In this document: in pieces, positions 1-55,760 of the stretch
Numbering within the stretch: position 1 is the first letter of the stretch
How the letters are laid out: each line of letters begins with the position of its first letter
DNA from: Buxus sempervirens
Taxonomy: Eukaryota > Streptophyta > Magnoliopsida > Buxales > Buxaceae
NCBI GenBank assembly: GCA_947561395.2
Contig: OX387182.1
Span: forward strand, 34,775,949 to 34,839,948
Length of the DNA: 64,000 nucleotides
Direction: 5' to 3'
The notes under the pieces: model-generated
Told to the model about the DNA's origin: nothing
Database searches by the model: none
Seen by the model: only the letters and a program-made list of their open reading frames with translations
Made by a program: the position numbers and the translations under genes

Positions 1-367
1 TTAGTAGAAAGTCAACTTTCGGCTCCCCTCAAGTTTGATTGGCCCGCAGAACCTTCATCCGGACTTCGATTCCTGCAAACTCAATCGCGTTGGAACCGTG
101 TAGGGATTCTCTATTCATTGAGATAAAGCGAGGTGGCCAATTATCACTTGATCAAAAGTCAACTTTTTGTCCCCTTAGGGTTTTGACTTTTCTGCTGTCT
201 TTTAGCACATTTTTTGTTTTCTTCTTTTCTTCTCTTTTTTTCTTTTTGGTTTGATCAAAATTTGGGTGCTTATAGCCCCCATAGGGTTTGAATTTTCAGC
301 TAGGGTTTTGAGCTGTTTTGCTGTCTTTTAGCAGATTTTTGGTTTGACCAAAATTTGGGTGCTTACA
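1..367 (-). mobile_element. LTR terminal piece (Tat/Ogre type), minus orientation
   Basis: This piece matches, in the same orientation, the right-hand end of element C's LTR (about 48960-49329) and, inverted, the starts of the LTRs at 14645 and 42744. Shared landmarks are the repeated phrases about a title-like 'caactcagtt / ggaaccgt' block, 'ttgatcaaaaagtcaactt' and the terminal 'gtgcttaca', which is the minus-strand LTR start TGTAAGCAC. The last 190 bases hold an imperfect tandem duplication of the LTR terminus (about 176-273 and 294-367). The left edge of the window cuts the piece. It is a fossil fragment with no coding content. Confidence 0.75.
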
Positions 368-1607
368 GGAGGCACGCAAATCCATGCTCCCCACGGTGCG
401 GTGTTTTCCGATGCGCGCAAAACATTGTTGTTTGGTGTGTGGCTTGAGCCTTCATGGGTCTCCTTTCCTCATCCCTTATAAGGAAAGGAGGTAGATCATC
501 ATCGGTGCCAGGTGGGAGTCTCTATACTCCCCATTTCGAAACCCAAATGGTTGATTAAAGGCAATGATCCCTTCTATTTTGAAAGCCCCATGAAAGAGCC
601 ATTTTAGCCAAAATCGAGCATCTGAACCACTGTGAGCTCGCTCTGGAGCTCACAGCAAATCACGAACCCTCCAGGGAAGCCGGCGAATGTGACCCCATCA
701 ATATTTTGGCCGTTATTAGGATTCGGGTCGGATTTGCACACTCAGTGCGGATTAGACCCAACCGCACTCCATGTGCGGATCAGCCCCAACCGCACTCCAT
801 GTGCGGTTAGGCCTGATCTGCATAGGGTATGCGGTCAGGCCCACTCAACCCTTTAAACCCATTTTATTTGACATGGATCACCCGGTTTGACCCTATTTTA
901 ACCAATTTGAACCATTTGGGCTTTCGGGTTAACCCAAGCCCCAATTTTGAGACTTGGGCCCATTTGAGCCCACCAAGGCATTGTGGGTCTTCCAACGGGG
1001 CCCACACCTAGTCTGGCCCATACTGGGTCCATTTAATAATGGACCCCAGGCCACTTGGTTAATTGTCCATGGCCCGTGTCCAAGCCCATTGAGTCCTAAA
1101 AACCTTAACCCACTTAATTTGTATATTTAATTAACCCAAAACCAAATAACCTAATCCGAAATAGGGTTACCCAATAACCCTATTGAGCCATGGGCTTACT
1201 TAAGCCCAACTTGGTAACCGATGGGCCTTCTAACGAGGCCCACATCTGACCCACTTCACCAAAGAATGAGCAAGATAAAATCAATTAAAATGGGCCTGCA
1301 CCTTCAATGGTGCCCACTCAGACTGAATAATTGTACATGATGGATTAGGAATAGGGTGAGACTAAGTTGACTCAAACAAGGGAGACCTGAGGGACCCACT
1401 AGACCAACGAGGCGGGCCGGGGTGTCTTCGAACTTCCTCAGACGTAACCGAGAACTTACCCAGAAACTCTAAAAAGCTATAGACCAGTCAAATTAGACTT
1501 GTTTAGGCACCACTGAGTCTACCTACACCTCTCAGGTAGTGGCGACTCTGATTATCCCGAGGCACACGTCATGCATGCGCCTCGTCGTGCGAGATCACGT
1601 GCGCACA
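368..1607 (+). mobile_element. Downstream part of a Tat/Ogre-type LTR, plus orientation
   Basis: This is homologous, inverted, to 40805-41995 and 37720-38500. It is rich in 'gggcccatt' phrases and ends with the same 'gtggcgactc ... gtgcgcaca' terminus seen in the other LTRs. A cluster of inverted repeats (CCGCACTCCATGTGCGG type) lies at 727-835, in the U5-like half. The LTR start and TATA half are missing, so it is a partial copy. It lies between two LTR pieces of opposite orientation, which shows rearrangement by nested insertion. Confidence 0.7.
727..835. repeat. Cluster of imperfect palindromes (CCGCA...TGCGG) in an LTR
   Basis: Three to four short inverted repeats with arms of the CCGCA/TGCGG type (for example CCGCACTCCATGTGCGG) lie in a row. 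The same word recurs in the LTRs at 37720-40598 and 40805-41995, which are the closest relatives of this LTR. Function is not known; see the finding on LTR palindrome cassettes. Confidence 0.7.
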
Positions 1608-8175: not shown

Positions 8176-8213
8176 ACATGGCAGCCACGTATATGCCATG
8201 GTGGCTGCCATGT
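8176..8213. promoter_or_regulatory. Inverted repeat upstream of the TATA box in element B LTR
   Basis: The perfect 13-bp arms are ACATGGCAGCCAC (8176-8188) and GTGGCTGCCATGT (8201-8213) with a 12-nt spacer. One arm returns at 9959-9971 in the downstream half of the same LTR. It lies about 410 bp upstream of the TATA box. Confidence 0.8.
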
Positions 8214-17443: not shown

Positions 17444-18902
17444 AGTAATTGGAACCAATTACAAGTAGAGAGCAAAAAGACCCACCAATTGCACTTTTTG
17501 AGATCTTTGTCTAACTAATTGCATTTTGCAAGGATTAAATGGATGATTTTGGAAAAAGAATTCATTGTGGAAGATTTGCTAAAAGTCCCTCAACTTAAGG
17601 GGCAAATCCTCCTCTCTCCTCTCACTAAGCGCTCGTGGCTATGAAGTGAGATTTGAGACAAAATTTTTTAAACAAAAGTGGGTAAGGTGGTAATCTTTGC
17701 AACTTACAACTAATATAGACATTGATCTCCTAAAAAGTGTGGAGAAAATAATAAAATATGCAACTTTCTGCTTCGCCCGTATTTTCATTACGGACAGATG
17801 TTGCCTGTAATTTGAACACGGGCGAATTGGACTGTGTTACCTTTACGGCCGCCTCTGACCGTATTACTTTTACGGATTTTGGCTTCCTTCTTAACCGCGG
17901 CCGCGACTTCTTCTTCATTTCTGCTCGTATTTTGCCCTAAATCTCTTGCGACCGTAACCTTTTCTCCAGTCCTTACTTCTTCTTCTTCTAATCTCTGATG
18001 ACCACTGTTTTCCTCTGGAAACTACTCCCATTTTCCGGCGATTCTCACATTCTCCGGTGACAACTTGCTTCTTCGGTGACCTTCATCTCCTACTGCCGAG
18101 ACTGGTACCCGTTCCCATTTCTTGGGATTTCGTTCAAGGCTTCCACACACATCAGATACCATCTGTGAGTGTGCTCAAAGCTTCCACTTTTCTTTGCTCG
18201 TTCCTTATTTCAACAACAACAGGTATGCCGAAAATCAATTCCTTTTTCTTGAGCAATTCCTCCCAATTGTATGCTTTGCAATTTCCGTTTTTGAATGAGC
18301 ATTAACTGATTATTATTATTTTTTGCTGCAAATGCTATGCTGCGATCCAGAATTGTTGTACAATCGGCCATGATTTTTGTTATGCAATTTCTTTGTTCTT
18401 GCATGTGTTAACCTTTGCTATGCCATTCCTCCAGCTTGCAATTTCTGTTCTCATGTTTACTATTGTTAAACATGCATATCTATTCCAAAATTTTGAATTG
18501 TAGTTTTGATAAACTCAAGCTTTGGCTACTGATTTTCTGCATTTTCCTGTTCTTGCTTGATGGCTGTGAGTGCTATATGCTTCCTCCAGAACATTTCTGT
18601 TTTCATGTTCACTATGTCCAAGCATGCTTATCTGCTTTCCAAGTCTTTGATTTGTATCTTGATAAACTCATGCTTTGACCAATGGCTGATTTCCTTTGAT
18701 ATCTGATTTTTCTGCAAATATGAGAGCTTAGAATCCTTGCCTTTGAGTGGCTAGCTTCCAATTGAAGTTAATTGTCCTTTCTTTGAGGCAATTAGATTTC
18801 CGACTTTGCATTTCTTCTATTGCCTCAGTATCAACAAAAGTAGGCTTGAGCTTCTATCCTGGAACCAAATAAACTCAAATGATCAAGTATCTTTAGAAAA
18901 TA
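17444..18902 (+). promoter_or_regulatory. Non-coding region with likely promoter and 5' leader of the antisense PMD gene
   Basis: The stretch 17757-17960 has several ACGGGCG/CCGTA inverted phrases like those of the LTR promoter. The pyrimidine-rich stretch with 'ccggcgattctcacattctccggtgac' (about 18035-18060) and the following 150 bases look like a plant 5' leader. A GT-type donor after 'caacaacaacag' (about 18222) could open a leader intron ending just before the ATG at 20759. This is inference from sequence style. No ORF here is convincing. Confidence 0.35.
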
Positions 18903-23641: not shown

Positions 23642-24060
23642 ATTAGGATTTTTCATGTACATGTATTTTGACAAACTGATGTATCCCTTTTTATATATAT
23701 ATAAAAGAAATTTGATTCATTTTTATTCATTTGTTCTCTTTTTTCTTTTATTTCTAGCTTTTCTTGCATGATATATGTTAAAGCAGGGACAGGTGAAGCC
23801 TAGGAAACCAATGAAATTAAAATTTCCCATTTTTTGGCATTTTCCCGAAGGAACCGTAATTAGCTTACGAGCAAGCCCTGCCAGTAATATTAATACGGGC
23901 GCACTCTGCCCGTAAATTTTTCACGGTCACAGTGTGTCCGTATTCTCTATACGGGCACACCATGCTCGTATTATAATTACGGATTTTACTGCCTTTTCGA
24001 ATTTTCTATATAAACTCAAGGGGGACGTCATTATGACACTTTTAAAAGTTTGAAAACTCC
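23642..24060 (+). promoter_or_regulatory. Promoter region between the two antisense genes
   Basis: It holds the PMD gene's 3' end (polyA-like AT-rich stretch 23690-23760), then an inverted-repeat cassette at 23850-23990 with ACGGGCGC, GCCCGTA, ACGGGCAC and TACGG phrases, then a TATA box CTATATAAACTC at about 24009-24020. The cassette word is the same as in the LTR promoter of element F, which suggests that the antisense gene uses an LTR-type promoter. Confidence 0.5.
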
Positions 24061-24804
24061 TTGAGCCTTCCGTTTTCTGCTTTCCTTGTCTTCTTTGGTG
24101 CTTTCATTGCTTCCCTCGCCCCTTTCTCTTCTATCGATGGATCTTCTCCTGTAAGACAACTTGTTAGATTAAAACCTCCTAATCTCACCAGGTACAATGT
24201 TGTGGATTCCTTCTATGATAGGTGGGTTAACTCCATTACCCTAGATGAGGAAATTCGCTGGGATTCCATCCACTTAGGCCATATCCTACACATCCCTAAA
24301 ATTCCTTTTAAGTGGGAAATCATTGAAGCTTTGATTGGACACTGGGTTCCTGAATTGAATCTCTTCCGTTTTGATGACAAAGAGATGACTCCTACCATAG
24401 AAGAAATTGAAACCATCCTTGGCCTAAGATTTTCTGAAAAAGTTGTGAATCCACCCCTAAAGCCTAGCTACAAAAAGGAGGCCTCCACATTCTTAGGTAT
24501 AGGGAAGAAGGACTTAGGAAATTCTGATACCCTATTGACCTTGTCCAAGTCCTTTTTGACTGAAAAACTTCTAAGGAGTGGGGACAAGGATGCCAGGTTT
24601 AATGCTTTGACTCTGATAGTGGTCAAGCAGTTGCTTTTTCCACGGGGTGACGACCAGGTTGACTTGGCTCTCATCTCAGTTATCTGCCAGGTTAGGGAAC
24701 GTGAGAGATTGGCTCCTATGATCTTAGCAGAGATATACCAGGCCTTGACTGACTGCTATTTCAGAAAGAAGAAACGCTTTCTTGCCTGCACCCCTATCCT
24801 ACAG

Positions 24805-24989
24805 GTAAAAAGGAAAAAAAAAAATTTTTTCTTTTTTTTCCTTTTTTTCTTTCTCTTTTTTTTTTCTTCTTCTTTTTCTTTTCCTTCTTTTTTTTTTTCT
24901 TTTCTTCTTTTTTTTTCTTTTCTTTTTTTTTCTTTCTTTTTTCTTTTTTTTTCTTTTGAAATAAATTGAAATTCTCCCCTTTTCTGCAG
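24805..24989 (+). repeat. T/C-rich low-complexity tract in an intron
   Basis: About 150 bp almost purely of T with interspersed C, between a GT donor (24805) and an AG acceptor (24988-24989). It is a polypyrimidine microsatellite inside the intron of the DUF7745-like gene. The Lys-rich and Phe-rich open frames across it are artefacts. Confidence 0.85.
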
Positions 24990-30784: not shown

Positions 30785-31791
30785 ACTCCTCCATGTACAA
30801 TTTCAACTAACCTTTCTGACTCGGTCTTGGCAACACATCTAAGTAGGATATCATTGTGTGATATTTTGTACAACTTCCTACCACTTAATAAAAACTGACC
30901 TGCCAACCTTTGTATTGTTCTTTTCTCTGTAGAAGTGACATTTTCTGGTAGACTCCGATCATTTAGGAAGTTCTTAATATCTTGAAACCATGGTACTTCT
31001 TCTTCTGGGGTTTCTTTTAGAACAAGGCAATAAGTTGGTTCATCTCTGACTTCAATTTCCAGTGGTCTAATATCAACACCTTCTGGCATACTGACCATTG
31101 AAGCCAATGTTGCTAGAGCATCTGCAAACTGGTTTTTGGCCCTTGGCATATAATTGAAAGAAATTCGAATGAACTTGGTGCTTATCTCTTCCAAATACTG
31201 GTGATAGGGGATCAGTTTGTGATCCTTGGTTTTCCATTCACCAGTTGTTTGGAAGATGATAAGACTCGAATCCCCATATACGTCAAGTTCCTCTACTTCA
31301 TTGTCTAAGGCTGCTTGTAACCCAATTATGCATGCTTCATACTCTGCAATATTGTTTGTGCATTGGAACCTTAACTTCACTGCGATTGGGATGTGTGCCC
31401 CATCTGGCTTGATCAAAATAGCCCCTATTCCATTTCCGTTCATATTGGCGGCCCCATCAAAGAACATTTGCCAAGAGCTTTCACCTTCTTCTTCTTCAGT
31501 AAATAGGATTGCCTCATCAGGGAAATTAGTTTTCAAAGGTTGGTATTCTAGTAAAGGGTGTGCAGCTAAGTGATCAGCAATGGCTTGCCCCTTAATGGCT
31601 TTCTGTGTGATATAGGTGAGGTCAAATTCAGAGAGTAACAACTGCCACTTTGCTGTTCTGCCAATTAAAGCTAGTTTCTCAAATAGATACTTCAAAGGGT
31701 CCATTCGGGATATCAATAAGGTGGAATGACTAAGGAAATAATGCCTCAGTCTTTGAGTTGCCCACACTAAAGCACAAAAAGTCTTTTCCAA
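30769..31791 (-). CDS. rnh: Element F dual RNase H region
   Basis: The first part is the end of the ordinary retroviral-type RNase H and connection (TFCALVWATQRLRHYF, KWQLLLSEFDL). A second, archaeal-type RNase H follows with the four acidic motifs FFDGAANMNG, AEYEACIIGL, YGDSSLI and NQFADAL. A second RNase H is the hallmark of Tat-lineage plant Gypsy elements and supports the family call for F and C. It degrades RNA in RNA-DNA hybrids during reverse transcription. The frame is long and open and overlaps the integrase frame slightly. Confidence 0.85.
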   Translation of the reverse strand: MEKTFCALVWATQRLRHYFLSHSTLLISRMDPLKYLFEKLALIGRTAKWQLLLSEFDLTYITQKAIKGQAIADHLAAHPLLEYQPLKTNFPDEAILFTEEEEGESSWQMFFDGAANMNGNGIGAILIKPDGAHIPIAVKLRFQCTNNIAEYEACIIGLQAALDNEVEELDVYGDSSLIIFQTTGEWKTKDHKLIPYHQYLEEISTKFIRISFNYMPRAKNQFADALATLASMVSMPEGVDIRPLEIEVRDEPTYCLVLKETPEEEVPWFQDIKNFLNDRSLPENVTSTEKRTIQRLAGQFLLSGRKLYKISHNDILLRCVAKTESERLVEIVHGGVCGPI

Positions 31792-37719: not shown

Positions 37720-38446
37720 TGTGCGCATGTCGGCCCTCAGGCGCACGCAATGCAAGGGGGGATGGGGACTAGGAGTCGCCACTGCCTGATGGGGTGCAAA
37801 CATACAACTGGATGCCTAAAGGATGTCTATTAGGTGGTTTACGCATTAAGATTCTGGGAAAGGGATCGGTTATGGTTCGGGGAAGTCCATAGACACCCTG
37901 GTCTGCCCCGTCAAAAGACGGGTCACACGGGTTGTCCTGGTTAGCCTTTAGCGAGTAAACTCATTTTTTATCTCACCCATCCTAAGCCAGCATGCTTACT
38001 TGTTTTGGTCTTTGGTGGGGACCACGTGCATGGTGTAGGTCCCCTTTTGATGTTCATTTTTATCTTCTTAGACCATGTGACCTAAGTCTGAATGGCGGGC
38101 CTCGTTGGAAGGCCCACAGAATGCCAAGTTTGGCTTAGCGTAAGCCCAAAGTCCCAATTCGGGTTACATTGGATAACCCTCTTTTGGATTTGGCTTACTT
38201 GATTTGGGATGTGATTTAAATATGTAAAATTATTAAGTTAATTTAGACTTTTTAAAGTGAGCTTACTGGGCTTGAAGGAAGCCCAATAGAATGGTCAGGT
38301 TGCCTTAAAGTCCACCATTTGGATGGGCTTGATTCCTAAGGAAAGGTCCTGGACTAATCAGAGACCAAGTTGTCTCTAATTGAGCTGGTTTAGATTGATT
38401 TTAATTTTATTATTCTCAAAAATCAGATTTCTATGGTTTCTGTGAC

Positions 38447-38520
38447 TTGCCTGCACACTATGTGCGGATTGGCCTTGTCCGCATGACATATGCGGATAGG
38501 GCCAATCCACCCTATGTATA
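38447..38520. repeat. Inverted-repeat cassette in the downstream half of the solo LTR 37720-40598
   Basis: It holds CCGCATGACATATGCGG and GCACACTATGTGCGG type palindromes. The upstream cassette of the same LTR (39880-40140) uses the same CCGCATA/TATGCGG/GCACA word. Confidence 0.75.
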
Positions 38521-39879
38521 CGAGCAGGACCTGAGAAACTTAAAAACCCAAATTTTCAAAGGGGAGCAAACGCCCCATCCACCTATGAGTCTAATGCAAA
38601 GTGGGGGGTCATCCGACCAACCAACCCACAAAGGCTCTCAAATTCAATTTTAAATGCCTAAATCCTAATTTTCCAAGCTTTTTCAAAAGAGAAAAAGAGG
38701 GAGAAGGCTTGGGGCCTCTCCCTCTCTTCTTTTGAGTTTGAACTCAAGGGATTGAAGACAGGGACCTGGAGTGTCCCTATCATTGTGTCAAGGCATCCCT
38801 CCTCCCCCCATACCAAGGAGGAAAGAGAGCAGTCCAAATGACCAAAGATTGTGTCTCGTCGGCCAAACCATAATCATACCCATGCAACAAACAAGGCACA
38901 AAATGGAACGTCAAAACCATGCTAAACGTGGTGGAGTGTGTGCTCCGAACCAGTGAACATTAAGAGTGAAAAATCAGACTTTAAACAGGTATCATTCAGT
39001 TAACATATAACAGCACATGAACTCATGTTGACACGAACTCATGTTAACATATAACAACACACGAATGCAGAATCACCCAAGATTTAGACTTGGATTCAAA
39101 ATATGTTAAGAAGACAATATCAAAGCATGCAGATGATAGTCAAATACAGCACACGAACTCATGCTTTTACCTGCCTATTCTTGCTAACAGGAACATGTAA
39201 TCAAGAATGTATGCATCTAAGGAACTAACACATGCATAAAGAGAACAAAATGAGCTAATTTACAGAAAGGAAGTGGGGTTAATTAGGATACATGAGACGT
39301 AAAGAGGAGAACATGCTCTCCTTGAATTTAATGGAATAGAGAAACAATCTCAAGGAAGAAAGAGACCTTAAAGGTCACTTTAACATAGATCCTCTCTCCC
39401 TCTTTTGAACTTGGATACCTCCCCTTACCATGGGAGTTCACTTTATGTGAAGGAAGTGAAATAACGTAAAGGGGAGAGAAGGGAGGCAAGCCAAAGTGCA
39501 TAAAAAGAACAGTAAAGAGAAAAAACATGCTTGTATTTAGCCCATACTCATATATGTTAAACACGATGTACCAAGATGCTCACCTTGGAGAGAGGGAGAC
39601 CTCTTTGGTGTTGTGTGGAATCCTCTTCAGGCTGGAACAGCACTTTGGGTTTCCTCCTTCCACTTCACAAGACTTTCCCCAACTTCCCTTTTGCTTGGGT
39701 TGAAGAAACAAAGGTTAGAAGAGTGTTTGAGGAGGTGAAAAGGGATTTGAGGGCTTGAGAATGGAAGAAAATGGTGATTCGGAAGTTCAGGTAGCTGAGG
39801 AGATGGAGAAGGAATAGTCAGTAACGACCAACCCCTGTCCCATGCTCGGGTTTGCTATTTATAGAGAACAGATAAAAAT

Positions 39880-40140
39880 TCACATATATTGTGAAAACTG
39901 CATAGTATGTGTGGTTTTAACGTGTCCACACATGCTATGCGGACGCGCGATGTCATTTCAGCATTAATCAGGGGACAAACTCACCTACGCGTAGTCTGAC
40001 GGTCAGGTCGTGAAAAATGTCTGCACATACAGTGCGGACACTTTTCGTCCACCACACACATCGATTGGTTGCGCAAACGGCGTGACACAAAAATCGACCG
40101 CATAGTAATATGCGATCGCGAATTCTCTCCCTTTTTGGTT
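39880..40140. promoter_or_regulatory. Inverted-repeat cassette upstream of the TATA box of the solo LTR 37720-40598
   Basis: Short, imperfect palindromes built from GCATAGTATGTG, GTCCACACATGC, GTCTGCACATACAGTGCGGAC and CCGCATAGTAATATGCG lie just upstream (minus strand) of the TATA box at about 39855-39864. Confidence 0.7.
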
Positions 40141-40603
40141 CGCGTTGACGGCTGAGGTGACTCAATTGCCCACTCGAAATGAATCAAATCCCTCCAATTT
40201 TTCTCTTTTTGCATTTATCTTAATTATTTTAATTAAGACATTTTAAATTTTGACTGATATGCCCTTTGTTTTGTTTTTGCCCTATTTCTGCCTTTTATCC
40301 CTTAAATTTGTCATTTATCAGGTGAGGCCCGCACACTTGTCAAGTGACCGGTCCTTCTGTGCTTAATTACCATTTTGCCCTTGGGGTTGTTTTCCTCATA
40401 TCTTCTCCATCCGAACTCCGATTCATGCAAACTTAATTGTGTTGGAATTGTGTCGGGATTCTCTATCCATTTGGATAGGTTATGGCAATCAATTTGGGCT
40501 CAGGCAAAAATTCACCTTCTGCTTCTTAGGGTTTTGACCAGTTTTTTAGGGTTTTACTTTCTGGCTTTTTCGAGGGGTGCAAAAATGAGGTGTTTACACA
40601 AAG

Positions 40604-40804: not shown

Positions 40805-41995
40805 TGTGCGCATGTGATTTTTGCACGATGAGACGCATGCAGGAATGTGTGCCTCGGGACAATCCGAGTCGCCACTGCCTGATGGGGTGCAGGCAAACAC
40901 CAAGGTACCTATCCAGTTCTAATTTGATTAGTCTGCGGCTTTCTAGAGACTCTGGTTAAGTTATAGGTTACATCCAGGGAAGTCCGAAGACACCTTGGCT
41001 CGCCCCATCAATCTGACGGGTCCCTCGGGTCTCCCTGGTTCAAGTCAACTTGGTCTCACCCTTTCCTAGTCCAGCATGCTTGTTTATTTGGTTTGAGTGC
41101 GGACCATTGAAGGTATTGATCCCCTTTATTTTAATTGATTTTTATCTTTTTTATCTTTTTTTTTTGTTGAGGTGGGTCGGATATGGGCCCCGTTAGAAGG
41201 CCCATTGGATACCAAGTTGGGCTTTAATCAAGCCCAAGGCCCATTTGGGTTATTGGGTAACCCTTTTTGGATTTGGCTTTTTGATTTTGGATTTAATTAT
41301 ATTTACAAAAATTAGTGAGTTAAAGCTTTTAAGGCCCATTGGGCTTGGATTTGGCCCAAGGGCGAATAACCAAGTGGCCTTGGACCCCTTATCAAAATGG
41401 GCCTTGGTTTAGGCTGGACTGGGTGTGGGCCCAGTTGGAAGGCCCACGATGCCTTTTTGGGACCCCGGTGGGCCCAGGTCTCAAAAATGGGTTTGGGTTG
41501 ACCCAGAAGCCCAATTGGTTCAATCTAGTCAAAATCGGGTTGGGTCGGATGGATCTGGGTCAAGAAAATTGATCTTAAAGCTTACTGGGCCTAACCGCAT
41601 ATCATATGCGAATCAGGCCTGACCGCACATATAGTGCGGTAGGGGCTGATCTCAAAAAACACTAGAATCTCACTGGGTTTCAGCTCGCCGGCTTCCCTGG
41701 GATGCTCGCGACCTATTTTGAGTTCCAGAATTGACTCACAATGGTGCAGATTCTCATTCTTGGCTCAAAAGTCTATCTTCATGGGGGTTTCGTAACAAGG
41801 AATAAGAGAGGAAGCTTAGGAGCTTCTCCTATCTTCTGGAGTTGATTCTTGAGGACTATAGTGGGGACTCTAGAAGTCCCCACTTCTAGTATTATTGAGG
41901 ATCTACTTCTTCTCGCTCATAAAGAGAAACTGAACATGGCTCGAAAGGACATTCCCACACCCCATTCGACCATCCTGTGCACGGGGTCGCACGGT
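40805..41995 (-). mobile_element. Downstream part of a Tat/Ogre-type LTR, minus orientation
   Basis: It begins on the plus strand with TGTGCGCATGTG, the inverted LTR end shared with the solo LTR at 37720, and runs about 1.2 kb through the 'gagtcgccac' signature and the inverted repeats at 41586-41635. Element C then begins. The 5 bp to its left are CCAAA; no partner is visible. The closest match is the plus-oriented piece at 368-1607, inverted. Confidence 0.7.
41586..41635. repeat. Palindromes of the CCGCATAT...ATATGCG word in an LTR
   Basis: ACCGCATATCATATGCG and ACCGCACATATAGTGCGGT lie in tandem. This is the same word as in the related LTR pieces at 727-835 and 38447-38520. Confidence 0.75.
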
Positions 41996-43320
41996 TGTGC
42001 GCACGAATTTCATACGTGCCTCTAGATGGGTAAAACGGGAAGGTTAGAATTGCCACCACCTGATGGGGTGTAAGCGGATACCTGGGTGCCTAAGTTTGTC
42101 TATTTGGGTTGGTCTGCGGCTTGAGATTCTAAGTAAGGTTTCAATTACGGTCCGGAGAAGTCCGTAGACACCCCGGTCCGCCCCGTCAGGTGACAGGTCC
42201 CATAGGTTTCTCCTGGTTTGAGTCAACTCACTGGTTTCTCACCCGATTCCTAATCCAGCATGTAATTTGGTTAAGTCTGGCGAGACTGCCTAAATGGTGT
42301 GGGTCCCTTTAATTGATTTTTATCTTGCTTAATTTAAGGTGGACTGGGTCTGATTGGGTGGGCCCCATTGGAAGGCCCACGGATGCCTTGGTGGGCTTGA
42401 TTAAGCCCACATGCCCCTGGTGGGTCTTGGTCTAAGCCTACGAGGCCCTTTGGGTTTTGACTTAGTTTGGTTGTTTTTAACTTAGGGTTTAGATTTGGGG
42501 ATTTAAGTTAAGTTTTATGTCCGGTGGGCCGGATGGGTTTGTGGACCCATTGGGTGGGCCACACAAGTGTTGCCAAATATTTTAATTTATCTTGCTTAGA
42601 TTCACCAAAATGGGCTGGACATTGGGCTTGGGGCCCGTGGTCCAGATTTGGGTTTGAAAAGCCCAAGTTCTGTGAAGTTAGGGTTTGAACCCTTACTTGC
42701 TTGGTTAATGGGCTTGGCGGGCTCGGTAGGGCCCTGCCCTTGGTGTAAGCACCTCATTTTTGCGCTCTCGGAAGAGCCGGAAATGCAAACCCTAGCCGAA
42801 AAGTCAAACCCTGAAGGGGGAAAAAGTTGACTTTTTGATCAAGTGAAATTGGCCACCATGATTTATCTCAATGGATAGAGAATCCCGACACGAGTCCAAC
42901 GCAACTGAGTTTGCTGGAATCGGAGTCCAGATGAAGGTTCTACAGGCCGGTCAAACTTAGAGGGGAGCCGAAAGTTGACTTTTTGCTGAACCCTGTGCCA
43001 GGTGCTTAGCCCTATGTCATTGGATAGAGAGCTCCAATACGGTTCTAACGCAACTGAGTTTGCTCAAATCGGAGTCCGGGTGAAGGAGATATGTGCTGTT
43101 GAAGTGTCCGGGCAGCAATGTCGGAAACTGCACACATGGCAGCAAACGTAGCAAATATCTCAGGGGGCAATCTTTAAATTTCAAAAATCTGCCAAATATC
43201 TCAGGGATTAAACCCAAATTGCGCAGGGGGCTATCTGCAAATATCTCAGTGTCAAATCGGTCAAATCCATGGGGTAATCCACAAATATCAAAAATATTGG
43301 CAGAATGACTAAAAATAAAT

Positions 43321-43550
43321 TTCGGTTATACACAAACTGTGTATAACAGAAATATATTTTCGGTTCATAAAGTGAAATCGAATATCGCCCAACAAATTGT
43401 CTGAATCCGTACCTGACAGAAATTAACTGCCAATCGAGTGCGAAAGTAACCGAAATAACATTTCGGTTACAAGCAAATCCCGTATAACCAAAATTAATTT
43501 TCGGTTATACTGGAAAATCTGTGTAACCGAAAATTAATTTTGGTTATCCT
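43321..43550. promoter_or_regulatory. CGGTTA/TAACCG inverted-repeat cassette just upstream of a TATA box
   Basis: At least four inverted pairs of TTTCGGTTAT / GTAACCGAAA type lie in about 230 bp, ending about 10 bp before TATAAATA. One pair is CGGTTATACACA / TGTGTATAAC. The spacer AT-content is high. Confidence 0.82.
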
Positions 43551-43559
43551 TTTTCTAGC

Positions 43560-43567
43560 TATAAATA
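43560..43567 (+). promoter_or_regulatory. TATA box of the solo LTR 42744-45893
   Basis: TATAAATA followed by GGGAGTCC and a pyrimidine-rich leader with 'ccctctctaccc'. The context (C/T-rich leader, GT site near 43836) is that of an LTR transcription start. Confidence 0.6.
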
Positions 43568-44775
43568 GGGAGTCCAGCCATTTGGCTGGGGGTTGGCTGC
43601 TTGCCGAATTTCTGCCCTCCCCCACCCTGCTCGTCCCTCTCCTCTCTACCCTCTCTACCCCTCCAAAACACCTAAAACTCTACCCTAACCATTCCAAACT
43701 CATTCCCACCCCCTCCTTCATTTCTAACACTTGGAAGGAGAGCTTTGGAGGACTTGCTGAGTTGAGAGGAAGCTCAAGCTGTTGTGGAGCCTTCAAGTGG
43801 GTTCAAAAACCATCCAAGGAGGGTTTCAACTGTAAGGTATGGTTCCCCAACGAACTTTATTTAACATATATAAATTCGAGGTCATTTGAAGCATGTCAAT
43901 CTTTAAGTAGGCTGTGAGGTCATGTTTTCTCACCATGCATATGTTCTTTTACCGTTTTATCGTCTTCCCACGTGTATTCGACGGATTGTCACCCTTCTAA
44001 GGTAAGAGAAGGGGCACCGGCAGTTTCAAGAGTGTATGGAAGGTGGTTTGGTGGGTTTGAAGGGGTCATGCAACCCCCATTAAGCCACTGGTTTGCTGGC
44101 TTCCATGGTGCTTGTTTGTCATAAAAAGTGGAGCATGTTCCACTCGTAGGTATTATCCAAGTGTAACCTCGGCATAAGCCCCCTCTCCTCCCCTTCTTTA
44201 AATGCTAGTTCGTTAGGTTTTGGAGATGGTCTTGACATGGTTAAATGCTTGAGATGTGTGGCTAGTTGATACCAATATGCATGCATGAGGTCTTCTTGTT
44301 AGTTATTAGGACTTAAAGCATATGTGGCATGATGTTAGGGTTACGCAACCACCTCATTTTGCAACTGTCTTCGTGTGTTGTCAATAAGGTTTGTATCATG
44401 TTTAGGGTTGCCGTTTTGAGACCATGAGATGCATGAGAAGCATGCCTAGATAAGTCTTAGCTTGTTTTTTTTCTCCCTTTTTTTTTCTTGGTGTAAGCAT
44501 GTTAATTTGCTCTGGAGAAAAAGGAACCAAACTAGGGATACCTAGATCCTTGGTTAGTCTTCATGTGGATTGGAAGGAGGGAGGGGGAACCCCCACTCAT
44601 TCCCTACTATTTGGCCTTGAAAGAACCCCAAAAAGTGAGCCTAATAGATCCATTAGAACCACTGTGGGCCCACACAGGGGCCCACAGAGATACCATACAT
44701 GCTCACAAACCCCTTGGATTGGTTTGGTGCCAAAAAAGTGAAAAAAGGCATTTCTATTGCTTACCCAAGATCTCA

Positions 44776-44870
44776 GGTCGGTTAAGGGCTTCTGGTGGCT
44801 TAACCGAAATCCAATTTCGGTTATGCTAGTATTCATGCTTAACCAAGATAAAATTTCGGTTACCTTAAGT
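44776..44870. repeat. Second CGGTTA/TTAACC cassette in the same LTR, downstream
   Basis: GGTCGGTTAAG ... CTTAACCGAAAT, TTTCGGTTATGC ... GCTTAACCAAGAT and TTTCGGTTACC occur in about 95 bp, 1.2 kb downstream of the TATA box. The word is the one used upstream of the TATA box. Confidence 0.8.
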
Positions 44871-46206
44871 GTTTTGCTAAAAATAATTTTCTTGCATGTT
44901 CGTCATTTGCCATGCCATGTGTACTGAACCCGATGAACCAGCAGGGTTTCCGGGTCAACCAGAACCCCAAAATGGTACACGGGCCTTCAAGCCCAACTTG
45001 ATTCCTTTGTGGGTCTTCCAACAGGGCCCACCCCGTCCAAGGTCACTTTACACTAAACAAGATGATTAAAATGAACTAATTGGGCCAAACCCTTTGAGGC
45101 CCACCAAAGCCCAATAAAAAGAAAGCATGCTGGCTAATGTAGGAATGGTTTGGCCGTGACTGCGGGCACGGGCTTATCGGGCTCAATAAGCCCATTGACC
45201 CAACCAGGTAGGGTCCAGTACCCTACCCACTGAACCACGGACCATCCGGTCCAAGTCTAGATCAACGGGCCCCAAGCCCAAGGTCTAGCCCACTCTTGAG
45301 AACTTAAAGAAGAAAAATTCAAATAAATTATTTTGGCAACCATGCGTGGCCCACCCAAGGGCCCGCAAACCATTGCAGACCCACTTGTTGGATGAAAATC
45401 ACTTAAACCCCAACTTAAACAGATAACTAAAATCAATTCATTTAAACCTAATCCCAAAGGGCCTCTTAGGACCAGACCAAGGCCCACCAAGGGTATCTGG
45501 GCTTGACTAAGCCCACCAAGGACACCGTGGGTCTTCCGACGAGGCCCACCCCATTAGACTCAAAGCACTTGATTAAAGAAAGATAAAAAAAATTAAAGGG
45601 ACCCACACCACTCAGGTGGTCTGCCAGACTTAACCAAAATTGCATGCTGGATTAGGAATCGGGTGAGAAACCAGAGTTGACTCAAACCAGGGAACCCACG
45701 GGACCCGTCATCTGACGGGGTGGTCTGGGGTGTCCACGGACTTCCCCAAACCGCAACCGAGACCTTACTTAGAATCTCAAGCCGCAGACCAAAGCCCAAA
45801 GAAGACAAGGTTAGGCACCTAGGTGTCCGCCTGCACCCCATCTGACGGTGGTGACTCCGAACTTTCCCGTGCAGCGTTTCCGACGTGCACACACTTGGTC
45901 TCAGCCGAACCATGCTACTTATTACATCATGCTACAAGGTGGGCTTTGGATGGGCCACATTGGGTTTAGCCCACCCGGCCCGGTTAGTTAACTTACTTAT
46001 CTTGCTTATTTACATGCTCAGGAGTTCATTGGGTTTGGTGTGCCCTGTTGGAAGGCCCACTGTGTATCCAGTTGGACTGGTGGTCCATGTCCCATGTTGG
46101 GTTTCCGGGTAACCCAGAAGCCCTATTGGTTCACTTGGTTTGATTGCAAGAATCACTTGAATGCAACAAAAATTTGGAGAACACACCAAAGTGGCATTTC
46201 TACCAC

Positions 46207-46231
46207 GTAGCCGACCTTCCTGGTCAGCTAC
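46207..46231. repeat. Palindrome GTAGCCGACC/GGTCAGCTAC in the downstream half of element C LTR
   Basis: The 10-bp arms have one mismatch and a 5-nt spacer. It differs from the upstream palindromes GTATCCGACC/GGTCGGATAC of the same LTR by two or three bases. Confidence 0.75.
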
Positions 46232-46579
46232 ACACAAGTTTTAGGGGCTCCCTAGGAATTTTATACAAGTTGTGTGGGCCCCTAAGAGGGCCCACATTGG
46301 TTCAGATAATGGGGGAGCATCCCCTTTGATCTCTTTTGGGATTTCTCAACAAAGACAAGGGGTAGGGAAGAAGGCATGGGGCTGCTGCCCCCTCATTTCC
46401 TTTCAACAACTCCAGCAGCAGCCTAGGGGTCTTGGCACCCCTATCTTGGGCATTCCACTTCACCAACCAATAGGTAATCCAAGACTAACAACAAGGCACA
46501 TCAAACCATGCAAGTTAATCACAAAACAATGCATGCTGTGGACATTTGAGACAGCAGCCTCTAAAGACAATTCGGACCA

Positions 46580-47700
46580 GCTTTAGTCATGCTAAAGGGG
46601 TGGGAAGTGCTTAGGGACTGTGGGGAAGGGGTTACATTCGTGCAGGGTGCTAAGGGCTGGGTTGGGAGTGCAAACAAGTGGGTAAACCTGTTGGGTACAG
46701 CAGCCGAACAACAAGGGGAGGGAGAGCATGGTAATGGTGGATGCATACATACATGCCCGCATTCATAGTGATCACACAAGGTAGTCATGCCATACATGCA
46801 CACAGCAAAGAGATAAAAGAAAACACATAATATGGAGGGGCAAATATAGCTACTGTTAAGGGAATTTAGACATGCTAAGGGGTGCCAAATAACAGACAAG
46901 GATGGGAAGAGACTACTGTTATCTCCAGTAGCAACCCTAGGGATCATACCAAGGGGTCATGGGGGTAAGGGGAGCATGGTCGCATTCATACATGACACAT
47001 GGAGGGGAGGGACTGCCCTGGAGGTGCGGGTGTCTAATGGGCTGGTTTAGGGGTGTACACAGGTGGGTAAGCCTGCTGGGTACAGCAGTTGTCCAGGGGG
47101 TCTGCACATACTAAAAAGGGGTTGGATTGGGGGTAAGGGGATCATGCACACATAGGTTAAGGGGCTAGTCTTGGGGGGGAGGATAGGAACCTTGATAGAC
47201 CTGCTGGAGAGTGTGGGACAGCAATAGATAGTGCGGGTTTGCTGCTGTCTCCAGCAGCAAACTGCATGGGTCATAACAGGGGATCATTGGGGTGGAGGAG
47301 CATATTTATTAACCACAAAACATCAAACAAAAGAGAGGTGAACAAAGGGGCACATTAATTCTTCAAAACAGCAACATGCTATCAGCAAAACAGTGGACTA
47401 AAGCAAGAGGAGGGGAGCATGGCCGTGGGGTAGAGTTGCATTCATGCAAGATGCTTGGGGCTCGGAATAGGTGTGCCAAGCGGATGGACAACCTACTGGA
47501 GCAGCTATTGTCCAGGGGGTTTTAGGTATGCTAAAGTCAGCAAATATAAAGAGGGAGGGGATCATGCTTATATGCACAAAAATAGCAAGTGATAAGGGGT
47601 TGGGGGAACATGTTGGTGTGCCCTATCATAGCATGTTAGCTGGTAGGGGGGAGGTTGTGGCTATCATCCACAGCAGCTCCAGAATCCATGCCAAAGGTGG
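46580..47700 (-). repeat. About three tandem units of about 400 bp in element C LTR
   Basis: The phrases 'gggtacagcag', 'tgtccagggggt', 'ctccagcagcaa' and 'gagcatgg' recur with 385-415 bp spacing (for example near 46690, 47075 and 47490). The units differ by about 20-30 percent by eye. The related LTRs at 37720 and 42744 lack the amplification, which explains much of the greater length of this LTR. Confidence 0.65.
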
Positions 47701-48481
47701 GTAAAAGGGAGACATGCATCTCAAACATAAACAGAAAAGAAATCTCACCACAGCACATTCATGCCTTGTCATACACCAAATAAGTAAATCTGCACATCCA
47801 AACGTGCATTCACCATGGCACACAAAGGGAAGAGGATACGACCAGCAAAAGAACACTCAGAAAAATTACAAAAAAGGTGAGAGAAGAGGAAATCAAGAAG
47901 GGTGATGGGGGGTTATATGGGGGGGGTACATTAGATTTGCTCATGAGGGAACACACTCCCTCAAAAAAATAGTAAAATAAAACCCAAAACAACAACTTGG
48001 AAGACATTAAAGTACATGGACGATCTCTCATCCTCTCCCTAGAGTTACACGTACTCTACTTCTTACCTTGGAGACCTCCATATGGCAAGGTGGGAGCAAA
48101 CATACAAAGGTAATGCAAAAATAACAGCTCCAGGTGAGGGTTAGATCAAACATCATGTTAATGGCTCATTTTCACTTATGTAATGTAAAATACCACAAGA
48201 AACGATACCTGAGGGGTGAAGAGGTTCTGGAGCAATGTATGGAGCCCCTTGGAAGCAGAACCAAGTGCTGGAAGTCTCCTCTCCAGCAGCAACAGCAGTA
48301 ACTCCTCCTCTTGTTGGGGTGAAAGTGAAGAGGAAGAAGGAAAGGAAAGGTTTGGACAACCTTAAGGTGGTGTAGGGAGGTGGTGGAGGCAAGGGAGGAT
48401 AAGGAGGAGAGGGTTCGAACCAACCAAGGTGGGGGGAAAAGGGTTAAGGCCAGCAACCCTCGGCCAGGGGGGTTGCTGGCC

Positions 48482-48490
48482 TATTTATAA
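48482..48490 (-). promoter_or_regulatory. TATA box of element C LTR
   Basis: On the minus strand it reads TTATAAATAGG. The perfect palindromes at 48501-48564 lie within 15-80 bp upstream of it. Confidence 0.6.
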
Positions 48491-48500
48491 CCTTCAATTT

Positions 48501-48743
48501 GTATCCGACCTGATAGGTCGGATACACTAGCAATTGCTTGTATCCGACCTATCTGGTCGGATACATTAACATTTCTTTGTATCCGACACAAAAGCTCGGA
48601 TACAAACAGCATGATTGAAAAAATTTAATGCTGCCAGAAAATCTGTCGGAAAATTCAACAAGATTTCAACTGAGATTTTCTGTATCAGACATATTGTGTC
48701 GGATATGAACAAATTTATTTGTATCCGACATATTTCGTCGGAT
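48501..48743. promoter_or_regulatory. Five GTATCCGA.../...TCGGATAC palindromes next to the TATA box of element C LTR
   Basis: Two perfect 10-bp-arm palindromes GTATCCGACC/GGTCGGATAC with 5-nt loops lie at 48501-48525 and 48540-48564. A third with 8-bp arms lies at 48579-48604, and two weaker copies at about 48682-48706 and 48720-48743. Spacing of the first three is 39 bp. They sit upstream (minus strand) of the TATA box. Confidence 0.9.
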
Positions 48744-49329
48744 CAAAAAGGTGAGTTTTTGATATTTACATATTGCCCCTCGAATTTGATTGATTTGACA
48801 CCTAAGATAATCGCAGATTGCCCCCATGCAAAATTTTAGTTCAATCCTTGAGATATTTTGCACATTTTGGATATTCACGGATTACCCCCTGAGATATTTA
48901 TCTATGTTTCCCACCACGTGTGCAGTTCTTTTGCCACATGTGTAGTTTCCGGCATTGCTGCTCGGAAACTTTAATTGGTCATATCTTTTCTTCATCCAGA
49001 CTCCGATTTGAGCAAACTCAGTTGTGTTAGAACCGTATCGAAGTCCTATATTCATTGGAGCAAGGTTAAGCAACTGATCTGGGGTTTAGCAGAAAGTCCA
49101 TTTCTACTCCCCCTCAAGTTTAACCAGCCTGCAGATCCTTCATTCGGACTCCGATTCCAGCAAACTCAATTGTGTTGGAACCGTGTTGGGATCCTCTATC
49201 CATTGAGATAAAGTAAGGTGACATATTATCACTTGATCAAAAAGTCAACTTTCGCCTCCTTGGGGTTTGACTTTCCAGCTAGGTTTGCATTTCCGGCACT
49301 TCCGAGAGCGCAAAAATGAGGTGCTTACA

Positions 49330-49347
49330 GCTGCCCCTCTTTGCCGG
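49330..49347 (-). promoter_or_regulatory. Polypurine tract of element C
   Basis: The minus strand reads CCGGCAAAGAGGGGCAGC directly before the LTR start at 49329. Confidence 0.7.
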
Positions 49348-51059
49348 AGTCACCTTGCGGATGAACGGAAAAGAGAAAAAAGAATCTCATTTTTGTGCCT
49401 GGAATTTCTGTCGACATGGTCGACGAGCTTAGTCCTTTGAAGTTTTCATTAAAAGGGAAACATCCAAATGATATGGCGTCACTTCCTGGCTTCAGAGTTT
49501 CCTTACCCTTTGCTTTTTAGGTCTTTGTAGGGTAACTCTTCAGCATTTAATTTGTATTTGAAAGAGATTAGATTGGACTTGAGCTCGCCAACCTGTTTTG
49601 GCGTTGATGTCAAGCACTTGACAATATTATTTTCTTCTTGTTTGTTCCATTAAAGCTTTTAGGTGACTTCAGACTTCTGATTCTTTTTGTCTTTTCCTTG
49701 AGGCTTAGTTAGTTTTTTTTTGTGACCAAGAGTTGGTTAGAGGGCGGAAGGTATGAGGAAAGGAGGAGGAAAGAGCGAAGGAGGAGATGCTGTTGGTGAA
49801 GAGGTGCTTCCAGTGTTGTCTGGTGCCTCAAGGGAGCTCACACACCTGCCCTATTCTATGTACAAAAGTGTAAAACCAAAAATTATAAAAGGGCCATTTT
49901 GCCCGATGAGATCTTCATTTCTGCTCGTTCTTCTTCATGTCTCGCCATTCCTTTCTCCTGCAGCGCGCCTTTTGGTTGGCTCTCCTTTTCTGGGTGAGGT
50001 AGAGGCCTCCTAGTTTGGAGTGACTACTGCTGGGGATTAGTCGGGAATTCCTTCCTCATTGCCTTTTCTCTTGGGTCATGCCTTGTTTTTGACAAGCGTG
50101 GGAGTTTCCTTGGGAAGGGTGCTCCGCTGGGGATAAATGGGGTTCCTCACGCTGTCATTTTTCTTCGTAAGGCCTCCTTCTGCTTGGGCGCGAGTTCCTC
50201 ATGTCTGTCCGAGCTCTTGTTGAGTGTGAGAAAACTCCACCAGGGGTTGGTGGGAGCTTGCTTCATTTCCTCATTGCTCTCCTTCGCGAAGCCGACGTCT
50301 TCAAACTGGACGAGGCTTGGAAAGGTTACATCGTCAGGTATCACTCTTTTATTGTTGGAAAGGACTCCACTGAGGATTAGAGAATCTCGTCCTCCGTTTG
50401 TTGAAGGAACTCCACTAGGAATTTGGGAGAGGATGTCCGTCATCTTACTTTAGCTGTAACTGTGAAGGCAGCCAAGGAACAGCATGTTAGTTGTGGACTA
50501 GCTGGGGAATGCAAAACATTCTTCTTATTTCCTTCTTGCTCTGAGCCTCTTGCCCATTGCAGCTAGAAGCGGCCTTTGACAAGGTGAAGAGATTATCAAC
50601 TCAGGTTAGTAGCACAATGTGGAGCTTACAATAGTTAAGCAAAATAATTACAGAGAAAACAGGTGTGTCAGTGTGTGCTTGTGTCTGCAATATCAAAGAA
50701 ATTTCCAAGGTCAGACGGGACTTGGAGTGCTTGGTATTTTTAGTAGCATGGTCATCACAGGCCGCTGTGAAATTTTCGGCTTGGGCACAACCTGCCGGTC
50801 TGGACCCCTCGGATATGTTCATTTTTCTCATTTTACTGTCTGCCACTGTCACTGCTCTTTTCTATAGCTCGTTCTGCCCAATCCAGGTGCGACCAGTTTT
50901 TTTTGTGACTGACCACACAACGCCCTTTTTTCAGGTTTTCGCCGCGTCCAGCCCTTTTGAGGAAATTCTGAATTCCGTCATTGCTGATGAACGCAGGCTT
51001 AACTGTTTGCCCTGGTCATTCCTTTCGGGATCTGAGAGGTCTTAGAGATAGGACGAAAC
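49348..51059 (-). other. Non-coding 3' region of element C, left part
   Basis: Clear same-strand homology to element A (1846-3400): 'gagtcaccttgc.gatgaacgg', 'cgacgagct.agtcctttga', 'ttgttccattaaagcttttaggtga' and others. No ORF is supported. It continues after the solo LTR at 53446. Confidence 0.65.
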
Positions 51060-53860: not shown

Positions 53861-54900
53861 TTAGGCGTAGTACAATTTGACTGCATCTGCATTTATCGGC
53901 TCAGGAAAAATTGCCGCGTCTATCTGTTGCAGGATAAGTGCTCCTCTAGACAGAACTTTGTGGACTACGAATGGCCCTTCGTAGTTTGGCTTGAATTTCC
54001 CTCTGTTGTATTCTTGATGGGGAAAGATTCTCTTCAATACCAGATCTCCTGCCTTGAAATGCCGTGGCTTCACTTTCTTGTTGTAGGTTCACGCCACTCT
54101 CTGCTGATAGAGTTGGCCATGACACAGAGCCTTGATTCTCTTCTCATCCAACAATTGTAATTGGTCGAATCTGGATTCTTCCCATTCCACGTCACTGATC
54201 TTGGCTTCCTTCAGAATTCTTATTGACAGAATCTGTACTTCTACGGGAGGACTGCTTCCATTCCATATACCAAGGAGAAAGGGGTTGCCCCGGTGGATGT
54301 TCTAATCGACGTCTGGTAGGCGTGCAGTGCGTAAGGCAACTTCTCGTGCTAGTCTCTGTAGGTGACTACCATTTTCTCAAGTATCCTCTTCAGATTCTCT
54401 TTGGCAGCCTCTACTACTCCGTTCATCTTGGGTCGGTATGCTGTAGAGTTTAGATGTCTGATCTTCATACATCTTTTCCATGTCCTTATTATTCAAATTC
54501 TTTTCATTATCTGTGATGATTGCTTCTGGCACTCCGTAGTGACAAACTATATTGGTTCTGATAAACTTGAGCACGTGGGATTTCTTCACATCTACGAAGG
54601 ACATGGCCTCTACCCACCTGGTAAAATAATCAATTGCCACCAAAATGAATCGATGTCTGTTCAACGCCTTTGGATGGACCTGGCCTATCATGTCGATCCC
54701 CCAGATGGCGAATGGCCAAGGTGATGTCATGGAGTACAGTGTATTCGGCGGTGCATGGATGTTGTCGGCATAAATCTGGCACAGTTGGCATTTCTTGACA
54801 TGGGCGTAGAAGTCTGCTTCCATTGACATCCAGCAATAGCCCATTCTTAGGATCTTCCTTGCTAGCATGTGCCCATTCATGTGTACGCCGCACAACCCTC
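53861..54900 (-). pseudogene. int: Element C integrase
   Basis: The C-terminal frame (53861-54073) has YEGPFVVHKVLSRGALIL and PEPINADAVKLYY, matching element F's integrase end. The upstream part, in the frame that also carries RNase H, has GHMLARKILRMGYCW, CQLCQ, WGIDMI, VEAMSFVDVKKSHVLKF and AIITDNEKN, that is the zinc-binding region and catalytic core. There is no chromodomain. The reading is interrupted a few times; the copy is broken. Confidence 0.8.
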
Positions 54901-55760
54901 CATGGACTTCTTCAATCAACTTCTGCGCCTCATCTTCTTTAACACATAGCAGTAGAGAGTCATTGTATGACTTCTTGTACAGTCTACCCCCGCTGTAGAA
55001 GTATTGTCCTGCCAACCTTAGAATAGTTCGCTTCTCTGTAGCTGAGGCACCTTCTGGCAGGATCCTGTCCTTTAGATATCTCTCAATGTCTGCGTACCAA
55101 GGCTCTTCCTCAGGCGCGCTCTTCTCAATGCTGAAGCAGTAGACAAGGTAGCGTCGAATTTCTATCTCCAAAGGTTGCACCCAAGCGTCATCGGTGATGG
55201 TGACCATAGATGCTAGCATTACTAGTGCATCCACAAACTGATTTCTGTCCCGTGGCATGTAGTCGAATGTCACGCTCTCAAATTGCTCTTCTAATTCCTT
55301 GACCAGTTCTTGGTATGGTACCAACTTCACATCTCTGGTCTTCCAGTCTCCCATCACCTGATAGATGATAAGACTTGAGTCACCGAACACCTTCAACTCT
55401 TGTATATGCATCTCAATTGCTACTTGCAAGCCTAACACACATGTTTCATATTCGGCCATGTTGCTAGTGTAGTCAAACAGGAGTTTCACTGCTATCGGGT
55501 GATGAACACCATCTGGGGAGATTAACACTGCTCCGATCCCCTTTCCATTTACATTGACTGCCTCGTCAAAGAACATCTGCCACTTGGTTTCCTCCTTCTC
55601 TTCTGTAAATTCTGTGCACATCACATCTTCATCTGGGAAGTGAGTCAATAATGGTTGGTAGTCTAGCAGGGGATGCTCTGCTAGGTGATCTGCTACAGCT
55701 TGCCCTTTTTATCGCCTTCCTAGTTGTGTAGACAATGTCATATTCGGATAGAATCACCTA
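54900..55760 (-). pseudogene. rnh: Element C RNase H region
   Basis: The archaeal-type RNase H motifs are visible: MFFDEAVNVNGKGIGAVL, NMAEYETCVLGL, FGDSSLIIYQ and NQFVDALV. They match those of element F closely. The preceding ordinary RNase H region (about 55650-55870) is present in part. A broken copy with few interruptions. Confidence 0.8.

Follow-up and report, generated by a model that had tools for sequence, protein, structure and literature searches.

Why should a retrotransposon promoter be flanked on both sides by one short inverted-repeat word, and why should that word differ from one long terminal repeat (LTR) to the next? The question is raised by a 64,000-nucleotide stretch of Buxus sempervirens DNA (contig OX387182.1, positions 34,775,949 to 34,839,948; this whole stretch is called the window), in which a preliminary description had listed five two-sided LTRs and interpreted the words as co-varying pairs of sites for a factor specific to each family. 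The repeated words are the arms of 23-bp near-palindromes, CCG-N11-CGG with three flanking bases, termed boxes here. Box geometry and box positions are common to different LTR families, while the lettering is specific to the family and is shared by the two zones of its LTR. It is moderately probable that a dimeric, sequence-specific regulator of Ty3/gypsy elements of the Tat type binds at these boxes.

Four LTR families were compared. Family A is represented in the window by a solo LTR (42744..45893, plus strand, 3150 bp), family C by a minus-strand element (element C, 49329 down to about 42000), family D by a minus-strand solo LTR (37720-40598) and family E by an E-type LTR with boxes at 759..809 (plus strand) and an E-type LTR fragment with boxes at 41592..41642 (minus strand). 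The solo LTR described earlier at 42744-45893 is real, as it has the ends TGTAAGC...CACACA, similar to those of other LTRs in the window, and is flanked on both sides by the target site duplication CTTGG. It is an insertion within the LTR of element C. The genome searched comprises 676.5 Mb, and the copies analysed beyond the window's own, whole or partial, were 20 of the 39 listed for A, 39 of 39 for C, 10 of 39 for D and three of 39 for E. Copies L001-L008 were not counted a second time, and the D copies were chosen for search matches in both zones (10 fetched of 12 such).

A palindromic box of constant spacing

All CCG-CGG spacings from 3 to 25 bp were scanned, with no spacing preferred beforehand. 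The window has 23 pairs at N11 and ≤ 7 at any other spacing; when at least four of five flank pairs had to match, there were 10 at N11 and ≤ 1 elsewhere. N11 also predominated in the copies of A (96 pairs, other spacings ≤ 24) and C (154, others ≤ 40) and in the pieces of D (23, others ≤ 6). At the calling threshold, 18 boxes were found in the window, compared with a mean of 0.6 and a maximum of 2 in 20 Markov shuffles. The spacing scan and the shuffle counts rule out chance short words for A, C, D and E.

The word of LTR A is TAACCGAAAT. The element C LTR has TATCCGAC upstream of the promoter, and TAGCCGAC and GATCCGAC downstream. D words are (A/T)CCGCAT or (A/T)CCGTAT, the solo LTR in the window having (A/T)CCGCA, and the E word is (A/T)CCGCAC, seen as AACCGCAC in the window LTR at 759..809. 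Genome-wide, the E-word pattern ACCGCAC-N1..9-GTGCGGT occurs at 1736 sites (reversed control, 1) and the C-word pattern ATCCGAC-N0..20-GTCGGAT at 6523 (control, 13). Among the first 50 listed sites of each pattern along one contig, the spacer is always the one that gives N11. The symmetry of the boxes fades at the centre, with position +5 paired in 0.02 to 0.60 of boxes and a less clear picture at +4.

Box arrays on both sides of the LTR promoter

The upstream array of LTR A (43306..43546) ends just before a TATA box, TATAAATAG, at 43560..43568 on the plus strand (offset 816 of the LTR). Its slots lie at -254, -216, -113, -75 and -36 from TATA. Boxes of the window copy start at 43447, 43485 and 43524, with a weaker box at 43344 and a degenerate -254 slot. 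In the minus-strand LTR of element C, the array (48502..48744; called box starts 48502, 48541, 48683 and 48722) has slots at -255, -216, -113, -74 and -35. The five upstream slots of A and C are therefore the same to within 1 bp, and the word differs in all five. They were counted over the 18 A and 34 C copies with a TATA box and are not filled in every copy, although at least one upstream box is present in 21/21 A and 40/40 C copies. Steps of 38-39 bp separate upstream boxes in 46 of 69 cases in A and 76 of 118 in C.

Upstream boxes of solo LTR D (39923..40040, box starts 39923 and 40018) are imperfect in the window copy, and the pattern there is weaker than in A. Among 10 D copies with a TATA box, the slot at -36 is filled in eight and those at -64 and -92 in seven each, at a loose threshold. 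The E slots (-92, -64 and -36) are present in two of three copies. From the downstream E boxes of the window, upstream CCGCA boxes had been predicted for family E, and they were found in all three copies fetched of the 39 listed (L108-L110), L108 having a single called box. The C LTR also has a GC-rich 36-bp inverted repeat a few bases past TATA, probably at the transcription start (48447-48482, minus strand), which was matched in 27/34 C copies and 0/18 A copies.

Downstream of the promoter, LTR A has a pair of boxes (44801..44862) at 44801-44823 and 44840-44862, 39 bp apart and with the same word as upstream; the CGGTTA/TAACCG pairs noted earlier before TATA and again downstream thus form boxes in both zones. 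Element C has a downstream box at 46208..46230, with a word one base off the upstream one (TAGCCGAC versus TATCCGAC), as had been described. In solo LTR D (38447..38498) the box at 38476-38498 was called at threshold and the other at a looser one only. Box starts are 759 and 787 in the E-type LTR and 41592 and 41620 in the fragment, 28 bp apart in both. This 28-bp period holds downstream in E and in some D pieces, and steps of 38-39 bp were found in 16/19 cases in A and 20/26 in C. Where the downstream zone was located, boxes were present in 17/17 A and 17/19 C copies. Copies in which it was not located (4/21 A, 21/40 C) were left out of the counts, and some of these show boxes by eye (for example, L030).

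In A and C copies the downstream boxes lie 1.1 to 2.5 kb past the expected TATA. No TATA box occurs within 120 bp of them (0/31 in A, 0/34 in C), and a second TATA promoter at this site was rejected for that reason. A 5' splice donor, AG|GTATGG, is predicted in LTR A at 43835..43842 (plus strand), 275 bp after TATA. AG|GTR was found at TATA+262..294 (near +277) in 17/18 A and 22/34 C copies, compared with 12/108 and 19/204 control windows. As the predicted donor stands between the promoter and the downstream boxes, these boxes are probably in a first intron. Roughly 150 bp beyond the downstream boxes, many A copies and several C copies have a further palindrome, GGGTTTCCGGG..CCGGAAACCC, which is of a different type (for example, L017 2553-2578). 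Insertions of repeated TTTTAGCGGCGGTAA..TTACCGCCGCTAAAA units were seen within two LTR copies (L014 1855-2535 and L063 1467-1860).

Classification supports the proposal that each LTR family uses one word on both sides of its promoter. Profiles of upstream boxes, trained without the copy under test, were applied to downstream boxes, with D boxes called at the stricter threshold and with eight upstream and four downstream boxes contributed by E. They assigned 91/95 downstream boxes to the right family (A 36/36, C 43/43, D 8/12, E 4/4), and the four misassigned were all D boxes taken for E. On positions -1, +1 and +2 alone, 78/79 boxes of A and C were classified, while D (7/12) and E (2/4) were hard to separate. 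Across copies, -1 and +2 differ throughout between family A (A and A) and family C (T and C). Downstream, +2 differs too, and -1 in C becomes G or T. This contrast between A and C is the most informative one, as the five slots coincide although the columns outside the boxes are only 52% identical between the two window copies. Within one copy, zone-to-zone likeness is 0.85 for the boxes of A and 0.65 for those of C, whereas for linkers it is 0.44 and 0.41 (11 and 36 unit pairs). Because boxes are alike between zones and linkers less so, the downstream zone is not a copied block, and block duplication of the upstream zone is not favoured as its source.

Of the five two-sided examples first listed, those of A, C, D and E hold, D more weakly and E with upstream halves found in its relatives rather than in the window. 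That of element B does not. Its upstream inverted repeat (ACATGGCAGCCAC/GTGGCTGCCATGT, 8176-8213) is real, with 365 exact palindromes genome-wide and a control count of 0, yet it has no CCG core and another geometry, nearly all listed sites being 38 bp long. Its downstream match is a single 13-mer with no palindrome. In the 50 genome sites listed, the distance within pairs is about 8-11 kb, like that between two LTRs, and in no case about 1.8 kb. Element B is of a different class, so four of the five examples stand.

Box arrays before an antisense plant mobile domain gene

The Tat domain order (RNase H, extra RNase H, integrase) of Ty3/gypsy elements was found in two pol regions of the window. 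The first has an open reading frame (ORF) at 30769-31791 with RT_RNaseH then RVT_3, and next rve in 29744-30784; the second has RVT_3, H2C2 and rve in 54377-55648. Both have the additional RNase H (aRH) between RNase H and integrase that is the positional rule for Tat elements (PMC6317226; this and the other papers are cited from their available portions). Solo LTRs A and D were placed in the Tat group by LTR similarity only. Another mark of Tat elements, a plant mobile domain (PMD) in an extra ORF, is present at 24061..24969. This ORF is on the plus strand, antisense to the neighbouring gag-pol, and encodes Pfam domains PMD (PF10536, E = 3.6e-12) and DUF7745 (E = 3.5e-21).

Boxes of the same geometry precede the TATA of this gene (23851..23985). 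The array is in a 28-bp register, has the word CCCGTAA/TCCGTAT and comprises called boxes at 23879, 23907 and 23935 and two degenerate end boxes seen by eye. Twenty further copies were picked down the ranking of 150 scored, and 18 of them have at least one box ≤ 200 bp before TATA (19 at a looser threshold); the exceptional copy L093 has other, group-LTR-like sequence there. Box starts cluster at -44, -72, -100 and -128 from TATA. A second CCGTA array (17774..17878), also in a 28-bp register, lies upstream of a PMD-like gene (domain fragments 21170-22147). From its position it may be the promoter of that gene; no TATA was found near the array.

The PMD family is numerous, with 5,887 first-look candidates genome-wide, 150/150 scored at ≥ 90% identity and many open frames, which suggests recent spread. 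The CCGTA of the PMD array is also the word of D copies L076, L078 and L080. Further CCGTA arrays were seen in L050 (about 4450-4560), L057 (about 3660-3770) and L058 (about 4115-4230), outside the sampled PMD promoter setting, possibly in another promoter or LTR. In the available text of PMC5418596, PMD clades A1 and A2 are reported from Gypsy elements only, and an anti-silencing use is suggested for MULE-captured PMDs.

Candidate regulators and relation to known systems

In the mechanism proposed, the half-site would be NCCGNN and a dimer would bind two inverted halves with exactly 11 bp between CCG and CGG, boxes being stacked at 28 or 39 bp. The array adjoining TATA would make a stereospecific promoter. 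The second, smaller array, in the transcribed part of the LTR and probably in its first intron, would take the same protein and so offer a second docking place in the leader. Specificity would be set by the bases beside CCG (-1, +1 and +2), and the change of family word in every slot of both zones would mean that the specificity of the protein had changed or that another paralogue had been adopted. A bound dimeric protein fits because the half-site spacing and the distance to TATA are fixed and symmetry is lost at the centre. Arrays with this geometry also lie before the antisense accessory gene, so that LTR and accessory gene may be controlled together.

Several observations weigh against such paired binding sites. 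The A-word pattern was uninformative genome-wide (4091 sites, control 206), being swamped by other repeats, and its 50 listed sites (C1 of G000, first 8.7 Mb) have spacings other than N11; repeats with AACCGAAC...GTTCGGTT arms, at a different spacing, fill that list. The slots vary, as the window D copy and L070 are without -36 and the sole called box of L108 is at -28. The downstream zone was located in 17/21 A and 19/40 C copies, and two of these C copies have no box in it. Arms within one box match beyond pooled arms in C (downstream -3 and -1, upstream +3) and in D (upstream -3 to +1), an excess that is absent in A. This is more than half-site recognition needs, and hairpins or copying between boxes would also give it. 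Conservation among copies is scarcely higher in boxes than in other columns (A 0.93 versus 0.89; C 0.80 versus 0.78; PMD 0.867 versus 0.865, counted without L092 and L093), so purifying selection is not shown.

The earlier idea of co-varying site pairs holds between families, with the family-specific factor a putative one, and is not supported within them. The preliminary description had held that uncorrelated upstream and downstream words would refute it, and this lack of correlation is what was found below the family level. For the share of CCGG in 17 C copies rho is -0.24, and for the share of CCGT in 11 D copies it is 0.32 (one-sided permutation P = 0.17). In C copies L053, L061 and L065 the upstream boxes have drifted toward CCGGC, while the downstream ones are still CCGAC. 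As copies do not co-vary, the correlation is carried by four families, which fall into about two related groups and so represent few independent events.

If a protein does bind the boxes, the evidence so far slightly favours a host factor over one encoded by the element: scanning of ORFs in the element C 3' region (6 of 18 listed) gave no PMD, and the PMD family is uniform while the LTR words differ. It is quite conceivable, at rather less than even chances, that each LTR family adopted a different member of a host transcription factor family with a CCG core, the downstream boxes then being intronic enhancers and no element factor being involved. The geometry common to all families agrees with this. 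However, no plant factor with a CCG-N11-CGG site was found in the literature search aimed at such a site, which listed one yeast paper, and arrays with that geometry also stand ahead of the accessory gene of the element itself. These arrays would fit instead the antisense PMD protein, or a partner, as the putative regulator, which would bind the boxes and raise LTR transcription or lift silencing in the manner of VANC. The use of the PMD word by three D copies is consistent with such a regulator, as are the VANC motifs themselves, which occur both upstream and within introns and vary from family to family (available text of PMC5735166). It is nevertheless a rather doubtful candidate, given the element C ORFs scanned and a by-eye comparison of the 150 PMD coordinates with the LTR lists, in which no LTR was seen adjoining a PMD copy.

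That the palindromes act in transcripts as hairpins, or are recognized as such by the host, is improbable. The match between arms of one box in C and D would suit hairpins, and LTR palindromes with small RNAs have a precedent in Sireviruses (PMC5311732 and PMC10760457, in the portions available). But hairpin formation would require no CCG core, no N11 spacing and no set distance to TATA, yet all three are kept across different words, and no Rfam match was found in the region searched (42600-49400). Even less probable is that boxes have no function and were multiplied within LTRs by slippage, gene conversion or recombination, processes that would themselves keep one word per LTR. Weak conservation of the boxes among copies and the drift of one zone within C would follow from such spread, and in the window copies of A and C the box columns (56% identical) are as diverged as the remainder (52%). 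Against this, the linkers between boxes are not common to both zones, and the slots hold their distance to TATA within 1 bp although the linkers have diverged. Binding by a dimeric regulator is the preferred reading of the boxes.

The nearest relatives in kind are the repeated-motif (RM) boxes of Sireviruses (Ty1/copia), described in the available text of Bousios 2010 (PMC2829016) as element-specific palindromes with a CGG/CCG core, clustered upstream of the LTR TATA and with more of them before the ENV gene. Here too, palindromes with such a core cluster upstream of TATA with lettering that varies by element, and more boxes stand before an extra gene, PMD instead of ENV. In contrast, the pol domain order and the aRH mark the present elements as Ty3/gypsy Tat rather than Ty1/copia. 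The orientation is CCG..CGG with N11 in all families studied, while spacing varies between Sirevirus elements; each LTR has another site of its own past the promoter; and the extra gene is an antisense PMD.

The targets of VANC proteins (VANDAL elements of Arabidopsis; PMC5735166 and PMC10398659, available portions) are nearest in logic. They are likewise short, repeated, family-specific motifs, found in upstream regions and introns, and coevolution with the element-encoded binding protein has been proposed. VANC21 motifs, however, are arrayed in one orientation in DNA transposons, whereas the boxes are palindromes of fixed geometry in LTRs. Promoter arrays are present in the elements studied here, and an intron position is suggested by the predicted splice donor. 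Ogre/Retand elements of the Tat group (PMC6317226 and PMC11963269) share the extra RNase H between RNase H and integrase, extra ORFs and the plant mobile domain, which is reported in an extra ORF for 57% of Ogre elements. In the available text, the string 'palindrom' is absent from the main text of PMC6317226 and appears two times in PMC11963269, where the place shown is a reference title. No report of Tat elements with such LTR boxes was found among open-licence papers, which were followed up in part. Compared with the known systems, this one belongs to another superfamily, keeps the CCG-N11-CGG spacing constant, has its slots at set distances from TATA and carries a further array within one and the same LTR.

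What antisense extra ORFs do in plant retrotransposons, and what the plant mobile domain does, is called undetermined in the literature available. A rigid, countable site with family-specific lettering, in the LTR promoter, in the leader and, in the same geometry, before the accessory gene, makes the role of the ORF and its PMD a question of binding: which protein recognizes CCG-N11-CGG, and does its specificity shift in step with the lettering? It is possible, although unlikely, that Tat elements have a control circuit of their own, in which a putative antisense-encoded dimer of PMD type would act on the boxes of three places, namely the promoter of its own gene, that of the LTR and the first intron, and families would diverge by a joint switch of the CCG-side bases and the protein. 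If true, this would be a retrotransposon counterpart of the VANC system and would provide a function for the plant mobile domain that transposons encode.

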